A stretch of DNA of 64,000 nt from Sulfurimonas marina (GTDB lineage Bacteria > Campylobacterota > Campylobacteria > Campylobacterales > Sulfurimonadaceae), in contig NZ_CP041165.1 in assembly GCF_014905095.1 (NCBI RefSeq), positions 1,240,001 through 1,304,000 of the forward strand, given 5' to 3'. The translations under genes were made by a program, and so were the position numbers. Below are positions 21,543 to 28,816 of this stretch, piece after piece. The notes below the pieces were generated by a model. The model ran no database searches. It worked only from the letters and a program-made list of their open reading frames with translations, and was not told the origin of the DNA. The number at the start of each line of letters is the position of its first letter. The stretch's first letter is position 1.

Positions 21543-22529
21543 ATGACTGAACATCATTTTGATAACGAAGCAATCGTAGAGGGTGAATTACAACTCTTTA
21601 GAACGCTTTGGCATACTTCAAACGACAATCTTTTCATTGTACGACGAGATACAAATGGGGAGTATATCAGTGAAAAGAGCAACCGATCTTTAGAGCAAAC
21701 ATTTCACCTTCTTCCTAATCAAATGGATGGAATAGCGCTTAAAGAGATTCTAGACGAAACGACCTACAAAAAGATTATAGATCGTTATGACGAGTGTATT
21801 AAAAAAAACAAGCCTGTAACTTATGAAGAGAAACATCTCATAGATGAAAGTGGCGAGAGGTTTTGGATAACTACTATATTACCGGTTACCGATCAGGAAA
21901 GTGGAATTATTAGAATTCTTGGAGTATCAAGAGAGATCACACCTATTCGAAAGGCTGAACAAACACTCCAAGAGCTTAATGAAAAACTAGAACAAAAAGT
22001 GATAGAACGAACAAAAGAGCTGACTATAGCATTACAGCAGATGGAAAAACTCTCTATTACAGATAAGTTAACCAATCTGTACAACCGTTATAAAATTGAA
22101 GAGGTTCTCAATAGTGAAATTCATCGAGCTCAGCGATACGATACACATTTCGGTCTTCTCATGCTCGACATAGATAAGTTCAAAAACATCAATGACAACT
22201 ACGGACATATCCAGGGTGATAAGATTTTACAAGAGTTCTCAAATATTCTTAAAAACTATATCAGAGAGAGTGATAGTGTCGGCAGATGGGGTGGTGAAGA
22301 GTTCTTAGTCATAACTCCGATCTCTTCTCAAGAGGCAATTATAACGTTTGCTGATAGACTTCGTAAGGTGATTGAGGAACATAATTTTGATACAGTAGGC
22401 AATATTACCGTTAGTATCGGGGCAACGATTTATCAAAAAGGGAGTACTATAGAGAGTTTAATTGCAAAAGCTGATAATGGACTCTATGCTTCCAAAAACA
22501 ATGGAAGAAACAGTGTCCATTACCAATAA
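21543..22529 (+). CDS. PAS-domain diguanylate cyclase (GGDEF)
   Basis: A 328-residue protein with an N-terminal PAS domain (about residues 15-130, ending in a PAC-like WITTILPVTDQESGIIRILG), a short coiled linker (LEQKVIERTKELTIALQQME) and a C-terminal GGDEF domain (about 165-328). The active site RWGGEEF is intact and the RxxD inhibitory site (RESD) is present, so it should make c-di-GMP from two GTP under feedback control. No membrane segment is seen, so it senses a cytoplasmic cue through PAS. It is a possible source of c-di-GMP for the antiporter fusion nearby; that link is inference. Confidence 0.9.
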   Translation: MTEHHFDNEAIVEGELQLFRTLWHTSNDNLFIVRRDTNGEYISEKSNRSLEQTFHLLPNQMDGIALKEILDETTYKKIIDRYDECIKKNKPVTYEEKHLIDESGERFWITTILPVTDQESGIIRILGVSREITPIRKAEQTLQELNEKLEQKVIERTKELTIALQQMEKLSITDKLTNLYNRYKIEEVLNSEIHRAQRYDTHFGLLMLDIDKFKNINDNYGHIQGDKILQEFSNILKNYIRESDSVGRWGGEEFLVITPISSQEAIITFADRLRKVIEEHNFDTVGNITVSIGATIYQKGSTIESLIAKADNGLYASKNNGRNSVHYQ

Positions 22530-22538
22530 TATTTTAAA

Positions 22539-23468
22539 TTATTTAAATTGAGGTTGTACGAAAGGTACTACTTGTTTTTTACGGCTAAGAACACCCTCTA
22601 ACCAAGCTTTGTTGTTTTCAAGTTTTACATCAAATGCAGCTTCGATTTTAGAAGCATCATCAGATACTACGAAAAGTTTTGAACCCTCTTTGATAATATC
22701 AGTTAAAAGAATTAAAACAGTGTGTAGGCCACCCTCTTCTTTCATCTTTTGCATATCTTCCATGATTTCATCTTCACGTGGTTCAAGTACAGAGATATCT
22801 ACCATCTCTAATTGACCGATACCAACTTTAGTACCATTCATATCGAACTCTTTGTAGTCACGTGTATTTAAGTTACGAGCAGATGCACCGTCAACTGCAG
22901 ATTTTGCAATGAACATATCCATAGCCATTTTTTTGTAGTCTTCAACACCACAAATTTCACTTAACTCTTTTACAGCTTTTGTGTCAACTTTTGTACAAGT
23001 CGGTGAACGGAAAATTACAGTATCGCTTAAAATAGCAAGCATCATCATCCCTGCGATATCTTTTGGTGGTACTACACCGTAAGATTTATACATCTCATAA
23101 ATTACCGTATTTGAACAACCGATTGGTCTGATCCAAGCTTCTAGTGGAGCATCAGTAATAAGATCACCTAGTTTATGGTGGTCTGCAATACCCACGATTG
23201 TAGCTTCATCAATATCGTCTTGAAAATGAGGCTTATCTGTTGAGTCAATAATAAATACTTTCTCACCAGCTACAGAAGTTTTTAACATAGGAACTTTGTC
23301 TGCATAACCGAATGTGTCTAAAATAAACTGTGTTTCAGCAGAAATATCACCTTGACGTGCCGGGATATATTCTTCATCTTCTACTTGATTTTTTAAGTAT
23401 GATAGTGAAATTGCACCTACAATAGAGTCACTATCTGGATTTTTGTGTCCAAATGCATATACTGACAT
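22539..23468 (-). CDS. ppaC: Manganese-dependent inorganic pyrophosphatase (family II)
   Basis: A 309-residue DHH-type phosphoesterase. The N-terminal metal motif FGHKNPDSDSI, the DHH motif (GIADHHKLGD) and the C-terminal SRKKQVVP substrate-binding motif are present. Length matches family II pyrophosphatases, which cleave PPi to two phosphates in the cytoplasm. It lies 27 bp downstream of the degenerate histidine kinase gene and probably shares the transcript that begins at or near uvrA. It converges on the cyclase gene with nine bases between the stops. Confidence 0.93.
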   Translation of the reverse strand: MSVYAFGHKNPDSDSIVGAISLSYLKNQVEDEEYIPARQGDISAETQFILDTFGYADKVPMLKTSVAGEKVFIIDSTDKPHFQDDIDEATIVGIADHHKLGDLITDAPLEAWIRPIGCSNTVIYEMYKSYGVVPPKDIAGMMMLAILSDTVIFRSPTCTKVDTKAVKELSEICGVEDYKKMAMDMFIAKSAVDGASARNLNTRDYKEFDMNGTKVGIGQLEMVDISVLEPREDEIMEDMQKMKEEGGLHTVLILLTDIIKEGSKLFVVSDDASKIEAAFDVKLENNKAWLEGVLSRKKQVVPFVQPQFK

Positions 23469-23495
23469 AATTCTAGCCTTTAAATTTTTTTCGAA

Positions 23496-24920
23496 TTATA
23501 CACTATTCTTTAACAAATCCGGAAAATTTAATACTTTTAAAGAGATTTTGAAAAGTTCACGTTTTGAAAGCGGTTTTTTCAAGTGTCCTACAACTCTTGC
23601 TCCATTTTCACTGATGTGTGCATCTTTAACACTTGAATGGGTCAATGTTACAACAGGTGCATCACTGATTTTTGCGAGTACTTTTGAGATTGCATTTTCA
23701 TCACTTGTAAGCACTTCTATATCTATAAGTATCATATCAAACTTGGAGCGCTTGAGCTCTTCAATAGCATCTCTTGGAGTTTCAAAGTGCAGCACTCGCA
23801 CATGACTCTCTAAAAATGACTCCATAATAACCTGTGCACTATCATGATCACTATCAATAACTAAAATGTTTGCACCATCTGGTGATATTTGCGCAAAATT
23901 TATCTCTAGATCGTGATTCTCATGTTCTGCACTTGGAAGTACAACTTCTATATCATTAAGAGACAAGATAAATGTAGCACCTTTACCATACTCACTGTAA
24001 AATGTAAGATCCCCGTTCATCAATTGAGCAATTTTTTTATTGAGTGATAATCCCAAACCGTCAGCTTCAAACATCTCAAATATTTTTGGCTGATCCTCTT
24101 TTTTTATCCCTGTACCGCTGTCTTCTACAATCACTTGAAGATTGATAGTATTATGAGCAATATTAGCTCCGTTAGGTTTTACATAAACATTAACGTTGCC
24201 ATCTTTTGTAGCACGGATACTGTTACTTACAAGATTATCAACGATCAACTTTATTTTACTTGCATCAAAGATTAATGATTCGGGAAGAGTTTTATCTATA
24301 TCGAGCGTTAACTTTATCTTTTTCTTAGCAGCACTGTTTTTATAACTATCTACAATAGTATTGAATAAGAAAGAGAGTTCAACCGCATTTTCATTGATAT
24401 CGTAACTTCCTGCATCGATCTTTGAAAGAGCCATCATACTTTCTATCAATTCCAATAGCTGATTGCCCGATGTTAAAATATCTTTTGCGTGGGAGTTAAG
24501 CTTTTCGTTTTGCAGGTCTTTAGCTAGGATCGTAGCGTATGCGATAATAGTTTTTACAGGAGATTTCAGATCATCTTTTACTTTTGAAAGGAAATCGTAT
24601 TTTACTTTTACCGCCTCTTGAGCAATCTCCTTGGCATTTTCAACTTTATCTCGTTGTCTCTCCAGTTCATTTTCCAAGTGTTCAATCTTTTTCAGCTGTT
24701 CAGAGATAAGGCTTGTTTCCATCCCCTGATACGATTTTTTTGACTGATACTCTTTTTTTAGGTGATTATCTTCATAGTGTAAACTAACTATCTCACCTTT
24801 TAAACGCTCTATCTCTTTATCTTTCTTAGAGGTACTATGTAAAAAAACAAGAACAATAATCCCGCTAAATATGATAAAAACGGCTAATATTATTACAATA
24901 GGAAGATCAATATCTATCAA
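23496..24920 (-). CDS. Degenerate hybrid histidine kinase lacking the phospho-acceptor His
   Basis: A 474-residue protein: N-terminal membrane helix (residues 7-27), coiled coil (about 33-105), HisKA-like dimerisation domain (105-170), HATPase domain (215-325) and C-terminal receiver (350-465). In the H-box the usual FLxxxSHExRTP reads FLSKVKDDLKSP, placing Asp116 at the histidine position. The HATPase keeps the N-box Asn and DSGTGI, but the ATP lid before DGLGLSL is shortened. The receiver keeps Asp356, Asp400, Thr427 and Lys449, though the second acidic residue is Ser357. The start is a TTG with GGAG seven bases ahead, overlapping the end of the HD-GYP gene region. Probably a non-kinase scaffold or sensor, inferred from the missing residue. 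Confidence 0.85.
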   Translation of the reverse strand: MIDIDLPIVIILAVFIIFSGIIVLVFLHSTSKKDKEIERLKGEIVSLHYEDNHLKKEYQSKKSYQGMETSLISEQLKKIEHLENELERQRDKVENAKEIAQEAVKVKYDFLSKVKDDLKSPVKTIIAYATILAKDLQNEKLNSHAKDILTSGNQLLELIESMMALSKIDAGSYDINENAVELSFLFNTIVDSYKNSAAKKKIKLTLDIDKTLPESLIFDASKIKLIVDNLVSNSIRATKDGNVNVYVKPNGANIAHNTINLQVIVEDSGTGIKKEDQPKIFEMFEADGLGLSLNKKIAQLMNGDLTFYSEYGKGATFILSLNDIEVVLPSAEHENHDLEINFAQISPDGANILVIDSDHDSAQVIMESFLESHVRVLHFETPRDAIEELKRSKFDMILIDIEVLTSDENAISKVLAKISDAPVVTLTHSSVKDAHISENGARVVGHLKKPLSKRELFKISLKVLNFPDLLKNSV

Positions 24921-24922
24921 GT

Positions 24923-25945
24923 TTATTCTCCGTCAATTAACTCTTTAAATACCTCAATATGTTCTGCAAACAGGTTAACGAGTCTAGGATCGAATTTTTT
25001 CCCTTTCTCATCTAAAATATACTTCGCAGCATCTTCAAAAGACCAAGCCTCTTTATAGATCTTTTTCTCTAAAAGAGCATCTAAAACACTTACAATTGCA
25101 ACTATTCGTGCATAGATGTGGATCTCATCACCTTTTAACCCTCTAGGATAACCTGAGCCGTCAAAGTTTTCATGATGTTCATAAGCAATAATTGCAGCAG
25201 CATTAATCAGTTTTTTACTTGAGTTTTTCAAGACATTTAAGGCAAGCTTTGGATGTTTTTGCATCACTTCAAACTCATACGTGGTAAGTTGGTCAGGTTT
25301 ATTAACGATGGCATCTTCGATAAAAATCTTACCGATATCGTAAAGCGGTGCAGCCAAATAAACCATTTTTATCTGTTCTTCTGTCAGCGTTCCGTCTAAA
25401 ATAGCAAGCTGTTTTGCAAAATCAGCAACTCTTCTAATATGACCGACCGCCTCTATACTGTTTTCTTCTACCATCGCCGAGAGTATATACACCATCTCTT
25501 TTTGAGCATCTTCAGTTTCCGATAAAAGACGGTTTTGTGTACTAGAGAGTTTTAATGATTTTCTATAACGGTAAAATTCTGTATGATGTCTTACTTTGAC
25601 TTTGAGTTCAGCTCTATGGATTGGGGCTCGTATATAGTCGATACAACCAAGTTCAAATCCCTCATCAAGCTCGTCGTAATCATCCTCTTCTACCATAAGA
25701 ACAATAGGTATTTCCTGCAGTTCAGGATGACTTCTAATAATTTGACATAACTCCAAACCATCAACTTCTGACATCCTTAGAGCTATTAAAATGAGATCAA
25801 AATGCTTCGTCTTTAAAAGTTCTACAGCATCTTGAGAGTTTAACGCATAGGAGAATCCATATCCGTTATCTCTTAGAAGTTCGATTATATCCTTCGTGTG
25901 TTCAATTACGTCATCAACAATTAAAATTTCATCTTTGATACTCAT
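24923..25945 (-). CDS. Degenerate receiver-HD-GYP protein
   Basis: A 340-residue protein: receiver domain (5-120) and HD-GYP domain (155-335). The receiver keeps Asp11/Asp12, but the phospho-acceptor is Ala55, the conserved Thr is Val85 and the conserved Lys is Ala107. The HD-GYP part keeps GYP (HHENFDGSGYP) and several His ligands, but the HD dyad reads YD (Tyr202-Asp203) and the later Asp of the aDvfDAL motif is Ser286. Phosphorylation and c-di-GMP hydrolysis are therefore unlikely. The overall sequence is otherwise well preserved, with no frameshift. It is followed after two bases by the degenerate hybrid kinase gene, and 45 bp downstream of uvrA. Confidence 0.88.
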   Translation of the reverse strand: MSIKDEILIVDDVIEHTKDIIELLRDNGYGFSYALNSQDAVELLKTKHFDLILIALRMSEVDGLELCQIIRSHPELQEIPIVLMVEEDDYDELDEGFELGCIDYIRAPIHRAELKVKVRHHTEFYRYRKSLKLSSTQNRLLSETEDAQKEMVYILSAMVEENSIEAVGHIRRVADFAKQLAILDGTLTEEQIKMVYLAAPLYDIGKIFIEDAIVNKPDQLTTYEFEVMQKHPKLALNVLKNSSKKLINAAAIIAYEHHENFDGSGYPRGLKGDEIHIYARIVAIVSVLDALLEKKIYKEAWSFEDAAKYILDEKGKKFDPRLVNLFAEHIEVFKELIDGE

Positions 25946-25990
25946 AGTTTCTACCCGTTTATTTTGGTCTTGTAGAAACTATTATACCAT

Positions 25991-28816
25991 CTACTTGTGT
26001 AAAAGCAACTCTTTTTCTAAATATTTACCTGTATACGATCCTGACTTCTCATAATTAGCAGCTAACTCTTCCGGTGTTCCGACATCTATAATCTCTCCAC
26101 CGCCTGAACCACCTTCAGGTCCCATATCTACAATATAGTCGGCATTTTTAATCATATCAAGGTTATGTTCAATGATTAACACGCTATTACCGAGTTCAAC
26201 AAATTTATGAAGAACACCCGTCAGTCTGTCAACATCGGCAAAATGCAGTCCAGTTGTCGGTTCATCTAAGATATAAAGTGTTTTTCCCGTATCTTTTCTA
26301 CTTAACTCTTTAGAGAGTTTGATACGCTGTGCTTCACCGCCTGAAAGCGTTACCGCATTTTGTCCGAGTGTAATATATCCAAGACCTACATCTACAAGTG
26401 TTTTTAGTTTCTGATGAATTTTAGGAATCGGTTTGAAAAACTCATACGCTTCATCTACCGCCATATTAAGAACATCAGAGATAGTTTTCCCTTTATAGAA
26501 TACTTCCAGAGTTTGTTGGTTGTATCTATGTCCCTGACAGCTGTCACACTTCACCATAATATCCGGCAAGAAGTGCATCTCAATTTTGATCTCACCCTCA
26601 CCCTGACATTTCTCACAACGCCCACCTTTAACATTAAAAGAGAATCTTGATGCCGTATAACCGCGGATCTGAGACTCTTTTGTTTGTGCAAAAAGATTTC
26701 TGATCTCATCCATCACACCCGTATAAGTTGCAGGATTTGATCTCGGAGTTCGCCCGATCGGGCTTTGATCGAGGTAGATCACCTTATCTACATTTTCAAG
26801 TCCCGTGATCTCTACACCCGCTACTTTATTTACTTTTCTTGCATGGTTTAAAAGCTCTCTTGCTGTCGGTAAAAGTGTTTGTAAAATAAGGGAACTTTTT
26901 CCACTTCCACTTACACCGGTAATACATACAAAGTTATTAAGAGGGATTTTTACACTCAGGTCTTGAATATTGTTCAGAGTTACATTTTTTATCTCTATAA
27001 ACTTCTCTTGTTCCCTGCGATAAAAATACTCGATCTTTTTTCTTCCAAAAAGATAATCAGCAGTCGTTGTTTTTGCTTTTTTTAGCTTATCGAGTGTCCC
27101 TGAGAATACGACACTTCCACCGAATTTTCCTGCACCTTCACCGATATCTACAATAAAGTCGGCATGCTCAATCGTCTCTTTATCGTGTTCAACCACGATC
27201 ACGCTGTTCCCTTTTTCCTGAAGGTTTCGAAGGGTCTTGATCAGTTTTAACGTGTCACGCTCATGCAGACCGATACTCGGCTCATCAAGTACATACATAA
27301 CACCTGTCAGACCTGAGCCGATCTGTGAAGCGATACGAATACGCTGTGCCTCACCACCGGAGATCGTACGTGCATCACGTCCAAGAGTGATATATCCAAG
27401 TCCAACATCATGTAAAAAGAAAAGACGTTCACGAATCTCATTTAAGATCGGTGCGGCAACCATCTCATTTTGCTTGTCCATGTAAGAGAAGTTATCCTCT
27501 GCGGCAAACCATTCATACGTTTTGGTGATTGGCATATCTAAAAGTTCAGGGATCTTTTTCTCACCCACTTTTACCGCTAGTGATTCAGGTTTAAGTCTGT
27601 GTCCGCCACAAACATCACACACCTTCTCACTCATATAATCATTGAGTTCTTTCTCATCTTTGAACATATCGTAAGCGATGCGGACAATTCCCGGCCAGAT
27701 ACGTTTTACTTTATGTTTTTTCCATAAAAATTCCACTTCACCGATAGTTCCGTGTAAAATAGCTTTTTGCTGATGCGTTTCAAGTTCAGAGTATGGGATA
27801 GTGATATCGATCTCATTCGCTTCACAGAACCCTTTTAAGAATGTAAAGTAGTACCCTTTGTTAAAACCGTATACGATCTTAATAGCACCCTTCTCAATAC
27901 TCAAATCCTGATCTATAATTTTCTCAATATCTAAAGTGTAACGAAGCCCTAAACCGTCACATTCGCTACATGCACCCTTTGGAGAGTTAAACGAAAAACT
28001 AAGTGGTTCTAATGGGTCAAAACTGATCTTACAGTCAAAACATGCATTGTGTTCAGAGTAGTGAATATGCTCTTTACAATCTACCTCTTTATGGTTTAGT
28101 ACATCGATCTCTAACTCACCGTAACTCTCTTTAAGTGCTTTTTCTACAGACGATGCAATACGATCTTTGTTGTCCTCTTTAACAACTACACGATCCACTA
28201 CAACCTTGATCGTATGTTTTTTCGTTTTTGAAAGCTCGATCTCATCATCAAGTCTTACCATTACACCGTCGATCATTGCACGCACATACCCTTTATGTAC
28301 CAATGATTCGATAAGATCAGCGTATGAGCCTTTATTTTCACGAACAAGAGGTGCAAGCATTACAAGCTTTGCACCTTCTGGGAGTTTTGCCACCTCGGCT
28401 ATGATATCTGAAGCAGACATCTGAGAGATCACCTTGCCACATTTATGACAGTGTTGTACCCCTACACGTGCATATAAAAGTCTGAAATAGTCGTATATCT
28501 CCGTAATTGTTCCAACTGTTGAGCGCGGGTTTTTAGAAGTTGTTTTTTGATCAATTGCGATCGCAGGAGTTAAACCCTCGATCTTATCTACATCGGGCTT
28601 GCCCACTCTGTCTAAGAACTGTCTTGCATATGATGACAACGACTCCATATAGCGGCGCTGCCCCTCTGCATACAAAGTATCAAAAGCGAGTGTTGATTTA
28701 CCACTTCCACTAAGCCCTGTCATAACTATCAGTTCATTTTTCGGAATTGTTAAATCTATATTTTTAAGATTATTCTCTTTTGCACCTGTTATTTTGATAA
28801 CATCTTTTTTACCCAT
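25991..28816 (-). CDS. uvrA: Excinuclease ABC subunit A
   Basis: A 941-residue protein with the two ABC ATPase modules of UvrA: Walker A motifs GLSGSGKSTLAF and GVSGSGKSSLIL, signature motifs TISGGEAQRIRIA and TLSGGEAQRIKLS, and the zinc-binding CxxC motifs, including CEKCQGEGEIKIEMHFLPDI. It binds damaged DNA with UvrB at the start of nucleotide excision repair in the cytoplasm. Length is normal. Its ATG overlaps the stop of the upstream TauE-type gene by eight bases, so the two are co-transcribed. Confidence 0.98.
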   Translation of the reverse strand: MGKKDVIKITGAKENNLKNIDLTIPKNELIVMTGLSGSGKSTLAFDTLYAEGQRRYMESLSSYARQFLDRVGKPDVDKIEGLTPAIAIDQKTTSKNPRSTVGTITEIYDYFRLLYARVGVQHCHKCGKVISQMSASDIIAEVAKLPEGAKLVMLAPLVRENKGSYADLIESLVHKGYVRAMIDGVMVRLDDEIELSKTKKHTIKVVVDRVVVKEDNKDRIASSVEKALKESYGELEIDVLNHKEVDCKEHIHYSEHNACFDCKISFDPLEPLSFSFNSPKGACSECDGLGLRYTLDIEKIIDQDLSIEKGAIKIVYGFNKGYYFTFLKGFCEANEIDITIPYSELETHQQKAILHGTIGEVEFLWKKHKVKRIWPGIVRIAYDMFKDEKELNDYMSEKVCDVCGGHRLKPESLAVKVGEKKIPELLDMPITKTYEWFAAEDNFSYMDKQNEMVAAPILNEIRERLFFLHDVGLGYITLGRDARTISGGEAQRIRIASQIGSGLTGVMYVLDEPSIGLHERDTLKLIKTLRNLQEKGNSVIVVEHDKETIEHADFIVDIGEGAGKFGGSVVFSGTLDKLKKAKTTTADYLFGRKKIEYFYRREQEKFIEIKNVTLNNIQDLSVKIPLNNFVCITGVSGSGKSSLILQTLLPTARELLNHARKVNKVAGVEITGLENVDKVIYLDQSPIGRTPRSNPATYTGVMDEIRNLFAQTKESQIRGYTASRFSFNVKGGRCEKCQGEGEIKIEMHFLPDIMVKCDSCQGHRYNQQTLEVFYKGKTISDVLNMAVDEAYEFFKPIPKIHQKLKTLVDVGLGYITLGQNAVTLSGGEAQRIKLSKELSRKDTGKTLYILDEPTTGLHFADVDRLTGVLHKFVELGNSVLIIEHNLDMIKNADYIVDMGPEGGSGGGEIIDVGTPEELAANYEKSGSYTGKYLEKELLLHK

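Follow-up and report, generated by a model that had tools for sequence, protein, structure and literature searches.

A histidine kinase and HD-GYP protein pair of Sulfurimonas marina with catalytic residues replaced in both proteins and purifying selection on both genes

The gene pair and its neighbours

The locus described here is part of a 64,000-nucleotide stretch of the Sulfurimonas marina genome (contig NZ_CP041165.1, positions 1,240,001 to 1,304,000 of the forward strand), referred to as a whole as the window, and comprises a gene for a receiver-HD-GYP protein and a gene for a hybrid histidine kinase, both on the minus strand and 2 bases apart in the list of open reading frames (Table 1). 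The TTG start of the kinase is preceded by GGAG in the window and in both sister species used for comparison (G070 and G148). The pair is flanked on the HD-GYP side by a gene that we take to be uvrA-like, a neighbour only, and on the other side, starting 27 bases beyond the kinase gene, by what is presumably ppaC, a neighbour for which no part in the mechanism is claimed.

Table 1. Genes and residues of the locus in window coordinates
Feature	Position	Strand	Remarks
ppaC-like inorganic pyrophosphatase gene (name presumed)	22539..23468	(-)	Constant neighbour of the kinase
Hybrid kinase gene, putative pseudo-histidine kinase	23496..24920	(-)	474 aa, TTG start
Kinase Asp400, C-terminal receiver, kept	23721..23723	(-)	Alignment
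Kinase E285/A286 junction, site of ATP-lid deletion	24063..24068	(-)	11 residues absent in alignment
Kinase Asp116 replacing H-box His	24573..24575	(-)	Alignment; Glu in G070 and G148
REC-HD-GYP gene	24923..25945	(-)	340 aa; putative pseudo-receiver and pseudo-phosphodiesterase
Ser286 replacing metal-ligand Asp	25088..25090	(-)	PmGH D305 by alignment
GSGYP, GYP motif kept (263-267)	25145..25159	(-)	Sequence
Tyr202 replacing His of HD dyad	25340..25342	(-)	PmGH H221 by alignment
Ala107 replacing conserved Lys	25625..25627	(-)	Thr in G070, Tyr in G148
Val85 replacing conserved Thr	25691..25693	(-)	Alignment
Ala55 replacing phospho-acceptor Asp	25781..25783	(-)	Alignment
uvrA-like gene (name presumed)	25991..28816	(-)	Adjoins the HD-GYP side; neighbour only

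A TATAAT common to the three species lies upstream of the HD-GYP gene (about 25946-25990), and a second one, between the kinase gene and ppaC (about 23480-23495), is also kept in all three, so that ppaC may have a promoter of its own. Pattern scans, in turn, found 11 promoter-like sites against 15.4 expected, which is no excess, and no terminator. The window also carries a diguanylate-cyclase-like PAS-GGDEF gene between an AMP-ligase-like gene and ppaC (21543-22529), which is either a recent insertion or was lost in the two sister species. This gene was considered as a partner of the pair and rejected, because the corresponding interval of G070 and G148 is without it. As for ppaC itself, it is 98-99% identical among the window, G070 and G148. 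With 0.29-0.43, its dS is far lower than the 1.1-2.2 of the adjoining genes in comparison with G148, a pattern such as codon bias or gene exchange would leave; elsewhere, ppaC matches with one in-frame TAA (G004:C8:60113-61027) and two in-frame TAG codons (G145:C1:2576343-2577002) are broken genes or assembly errors.

Residue replacements in the two proteins

The kinase belongs to the HisKA and HATPase_c sequence families (Pfam HisKA, 1.4e-9, score 38.3, cut-off 26.9; HATPase_c, 1.9e-19, score 70.6, cut-off 26.4), and a receiver is called by Pfam in this protein and in the HD-GYP protein alike. An N-terminal hydrophobic segment and a predicted helix are followed by DHp, CA and receiver domains, and solved relatives include DivL (4q20, E 3.2e-15). 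Its H-box reads KDDLKSPV, and the phospho-acceptor His of an active HisKA domain is missing in the window, G070 and G148. The original prediction, which named the substitutions in both proteins and the two-base gap, reads the sequence correctly: every residue is present as described, Asp116 is accompanied by a shortened ATP lid, with 11 residues missing in the alignment between the F-box and the G2 box, and Asp400 is kept in the C-terminal receiver. Residues of all four ATP-binding boxes (N, G1, F, G2) are retained (N229, N233, D267, G269, G271, F281, F284, G288, G290), and in the three species position 117 is acidic and position 120 is Ser/Thr. Where a second acidic residue would be expected, the kinase receiver has Ser in the window and in G070, and Lys in G148, at a position that is variable in intact relatives too. 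In published data, the His is missing in 0.9% of HisKA domains and the Asp in 2.0% of receivers (PMC12632262). The protein is His-less and its gene is under purifying selection (see below), and it is a candidate pseudo-histidine kinase of the DivL type with a putative regulatory role. Single-sequence AlphaFold2 modelling performed poorly for both proteins (mean pLDDT 41.2 and 39.4), and the models were set aside.

Its partner is a member of the HD-GYP sequence family, as it has both the HD profile (Pfam HD_5, 1.5e-31, 109.9 bits, cut-off 27.2) and the GYP motif, and the Asp, Thr and Lys of a phosphorylatable receiver are all replaced in it, by Ala55, Val85 and Ala107. The closest solved HD-GYP protein by sequence is PmGH (PDB 4mcw, E 3.8e-43). 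In the numbering of the PmGH paper, the alignment pairs E165, H169, Y202 and D203 of the window with E185, H189, H221 and D222, and H231, H257, H258 and S286 with H250, H276, H277 and D305. These eight PmGH residues are given as its iron ligands in that paper (PMC4159591), and six of the eight are kept in the window, short of the set of an active phosphodiesterase: PmGH is an active tri-iron enzyme, whereas the window protein has Tyr and Ser at the equivalents of H221 and D305. According to the same paper, H221 belongs to the H-site and D305 is described as influencing the M-H pair; activity was essentially abolished in H221A and markedly reduced, with some left, in D305A, was not greatly lowered by GYP and R314 substitutions, and the c-di-GMP complex had the G-site iron only (PMC4159591).

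Of 42 near-invariant positions of the HD-GYP domain, 38 are retained in the window. The four that changed (H202, A285, D286, R295) are two HD-side metal-site ligands, one neighbour and one phosphate-contact Arg, the last being Lys in the window and equivalent to R314 of PmGH. With regard to c-di-GMP binding of the DvhD kind, G265, Y266, P267, I275 and K298 are kept. Together with the PmGH mutants and the G-site complex, the kept and lost positions make it a fair prediction that the protein would not hydrolyse c-di-GMP and might still hold this ligand. The N-terminal half of the protein has lost 14 of its 38 near-invariant positions, with 16, 17 and 20 of the first receiver helix among the losses, and the way it docks on the kinase may have changed as a consequence.

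It is very improbable that the two proteins are, alternatively, altered enzymes, with the HD-GYP protein acting on another substrate or the kinase serving as a phosphatase for another regulator. The six retained metal ligands would agree with such an activity, as would the acid at 117 and the Ser/Thr at 120, and the His is reported not to be essential for the phosphatase activity of HisKA proteins (PMC12632262). However, the PmGH H221A protein is essentially inactive (PMC4159591), and the neighbouring receiver lacks an Asp from which phosphate could be removed.

Relatives in the genus and selection on the pair

Among 135 genomes of the genus, 43 have matches to the kinase (E 1e-45 or better) and 43 to the HD-GYP protein (1e-75 or better). 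These fall into two kinds of unit, in which an HD-GYP gene is found with either a short kinase of about 465-596 aa, the window's kind, or a long kinase of, in most cases, about 1030-1165 aa (shortest 810, longest 1406), an example of which carries N-terminal solute-binding domains. The window's genome has one unit of each kind, and the catalytic residues are present in the long one (L061). A scan of the genome contigs returned only L127, weak and unrelated, which was not used. The original prediction called for a check of whether the substitutions are conserved across Campylobacterota, and this was not seen: in 23 genomes of the order that belong to other families, the top match to the kinase is 30% identical (E 1.5e-45).

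The short kinase adjoins ppaC in 25 of its 31 loci; four of the others are cut by contig ends, and G094 and G152 have ppaC elsewhere. In G082 a 131-aa ORF lies between the two genes. It is also possible to find the long-kinase unit directly beside ppaC (L221 and L222, in G116 and G066), which suggests that the short unit derived from, or replaced, a long one there.

The H-box could be read in 30 of the 31 loci, and the His is present in 20 and missing in 10, compared with the published 0.9% of HisKA domains; it is replaced by Asp or Glu in the window, G070, G148, G009 and G028, by Thr or Ile in G033, G060, G114 and G118, and by Tyr in G100. Orthologues that keep the catalytic residues had been named in advance as evidence against the prediction, if the substitutions were limited to one strain; such orthologues are indeed the majority (20/30), but the substitutions extend beyond one strain. 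A canonical HD-GYP gene adjoins all 20 His-bearing kinases and none of the 10 His-less ones (Fisher p 3e-8, a value that overstates the association because the loci are related). Beside four of the ten (window, G070, G148 and G009) lies a degenerate HD-GYP gene, and the other six have none there. The coupling is not absolute, given that in G152 a stop-broken kinase adjoins an intact HD-GYP gene. All 13 key residues are found in 51 of the 56 HD-GYP proteins of the family, and the five exceptions (window, G070, G148, G009 and G095) all have Tyr202. The G095 gene (L181 1211-2275 (-)) adjoins ppaC with no kinase beside it, and its product, with Tyr202, Ser203 and Tyr231, is another degenerate form.

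Asp400 is retained in all ten His-less kinases and Lys449 in nine, which would fit an entry of phosphate at this point, as the original prediction suggested, with another kinase phosphorylating the receiver and the dead DHp and CA domains serving as a scaffold. We consider such a relay quite improbable, however, as the receiver's second acidic residue is not kept as such and varies in intact relatives, and Asn stands at position 400 in G094 and G152, both of them His-bearing loci. In 40 kinases, short and long (e.g. L132, L061), the receiver is followed by a tail of roughly 100-115 aa, which is missing in nine of the ten His-less ones, G009 being the one that retains it. Pfam found no HPt domain in the two tails scanned and the tail alignment has no column with a majority of His; the tail may be an HPt-like domain without its His, or something else.

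Whether the degeneration has a single origin was addressed with trees. On the species tree (uvrA plus ppaC, 59 selected genomes, many of which fill less than half of the columns), three changes between His-bearing and His-less kinases are needed, and a count that allows no regain gives five His losses (window group, G060 group, G009, G100 and G028), several branches behind this figure being weak (61-90). The gene trees require at least three changes for the kinase and two for the HD-GYP protein, with G009 and G095, both long branches, pairing together in the latter. A single origin was not rejected by the AU test (p 0.247 for 10 kinases, 0.065 for four HD-GYPs and 0.094 for five). Degeneration probably arose more than once, even though this is not proven. 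Kinase fragments of G013, G152 (two pieces) and G153 were left out of the kinase tree, the same fragments together with G082 and G135par out of the kinase conservation count, and the distant HD-GYP relatives in L069-L072 out of all trees.

The kinases of the two sister species are 90% and 74% identical to that of the window and the HD-GYP proteins 94% and 72%, with the same lengths (340 and 474 aa) in all three. A55, V85, Y202, S286, an acid at kinase 116 and the lid deletion are common to them. A set of mutations specific to a single strain was hence rejected, and because the substitutions recur in two other species they are not an effect of chance or of sequencing. The dN/dS values (Nei-Gojobori) for the three pairs were 0.073, 0.088 and 0.076 for the kinase and 0.038, 0.105 and 0.126 for the HD-GYP gene, the ratios to G148 being rough because dS is near saturation. 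In the same species, uvrA gave 0.023-0.029, ppaC 0.024-0.034, the intact paralogous HD-GYP gene 0.027-0.033 and the paralogous long kinase 0.084-0.107. Intact orthologues gave 0.071-0.239 (eight kinase pairs) and 0.021-0.098 (eight HD-GYP pairs), and kinases without an HD-GYP neighbour 0.110-0.171 (four pairs). By this comparison the kinase is under as much constraint as the active kinases related to it, and the HD-GYP gene is constrained as well, somewhat less than its paralogue; all three of its values exceed those of the paralogue, and two exceed the range of intact orthologues. Purifying selection on both genes, for which the original prediction proposed a test, is what these values of 0.04-0.13 indicate, and they speak against free decay.

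Slow decay, in which the pair would be an inactive relic heading for deletion, was nonetheless weighed. The unit is often absent, with uvrA directly beside ppaC in 17 of 80 ppaC places and likewise in G085, the nearest outgroup; an HD-GYP neighbour is missing from six His-less kinases, the G152 kinase is broken by a stop and that of G082 is truncated, and the HD-GYP ratio is, as said, above that of its paralogue. However, neither gene has a stop or a frameshift in any of the three species, at dS 0.8 and more, while genes simulated under neutrality, with no indels, acquired 7.8-14.8 stops on average and kept an intact frame in at most 0.2% of runs. With lengths constant and dN/dS low, ordinary decay of the pair is unlikely.

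Between the window and G070, the most constrained large domains are the HD-GYP domain (0.015) and the DHp domain of the kinase (0.022). The latter would agree with a pseudo-kinase that pairs with an intact kinase, for instance the long paralogue with solute-binding domains, and tunes it; the same genome does hold such an intact unit (L061), and there is a proposed precedent in ChrS/HrrS (PMC9491836). The ChrS variant is likewise a kinase-dead histidine kinase whose phenotype depends on a paralogue, but it is a frameshift product of laboratory evolution, in contrast to the natural and conserved gene described here. We find such a heterodimer improbable, as the core of the paralogous kinase is only 33% identical and the matching loss in the HD-GYP protein would be left unexplained.

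A possible role in binding

A pair that is catalytically dead twice over but still selected is well supported by these data; how it works is what we infer. Our best reading is that a pair of pseudo-enzymes is kept as a binding module, possibly one that senses c-di-GMP, and we are inclined to believe that these are ex-enzymes that lost their chemistry in the window's lineage and were retained for binding functions. The ancestor would have been a working hybrid kinase with a REC-HD-GYP phosphodiesterase. The present kinase would be unable to autophosphorylate, the pseudo-receiver of its partner would not be phosphorylatable, and the HD-GYP domain would be unable to hydrolyse c-di-GMP because the HD-side metal site is broken. 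More tentatively, this domain might still bind c-di-GMP or its product and signal by protein contact, with the pseudo-kinase docking on it. The idea that the original prediction put forward, of a module for protein interaction or ligand binding, is favoured by losses shared among three species under the expected purifying selection, even if conservation throughout Campylobacterota is not part of the picture. A bolder version, which we regard as doubtful, would have the HD-GYP output sense c-di-GMP and the kinase input act as its docking effector, in a backward and phosphate-free flow that arose repeatedly within one gene family of the genus, with the active ancestral form retained in other sister species. 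The active orthologues of those species are ready controls, which makes the function of such a pair after the loss of phosphotransfer directly testable.

Each of the three kinds, pseudo-kinase, pseudo-receiver and inactive HD-GYP domain, is known on its own, and here kinase and regulator are dead together and under selection. A search of open-access papers found none on this pair and none that joins a pseudo-histidine kinase with an HD-GYP protein; DivL, PA2572 and DvhD are precedents for single halves, and the doubly dead pair is, within that search, a new variation on them. DivL of Caulobacter (PMC4211667) is a His-less kinase kept to bind a regulator, with the flow of information reversed. 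It shares with the window kinase a histidine-kinase fold with the His replaced, but has Tyr at that position, PAS domains and a phosphorylatable partner, DivK, whereas the window kinase has Asp/Glu in the group, a cut lid and a dead adjoining receiver. How pseudo-receivers are switched has been called a mystery (PMC12632262). The YN-GYP protein PA2572 of Pseudomonas aeruginosa, also a receiver with an HD-GYP variant and Tyr for the dyad His (YN there, YD in the window), does not hydrolyse c-di-GMP and acts by a REC-dependent protein contact; this contact is with the chemotaxis protein PA2573 and there is no interaction with the flanking kinase PA2571 (PMC3411652, PMC3774798). Lastly, DvhD of Desulfovibrio vulgaris has a degenerate HD-GYP domain that acts as a c-di-GMP receptor, with binding seen by crystal structure. 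Metal-dependent hydrolysis is missing in DvhD, as is predicted for the window protein, but DvhD is a PAS/HD-GYP protein of the membrane in which SQ replaces HD and the double His, kept in the window protein, is absent (PMC13090378). The pair bears on whether the loss of one metal site can turn an HD-GYP enzyme into a receptor for c-di-GMP.
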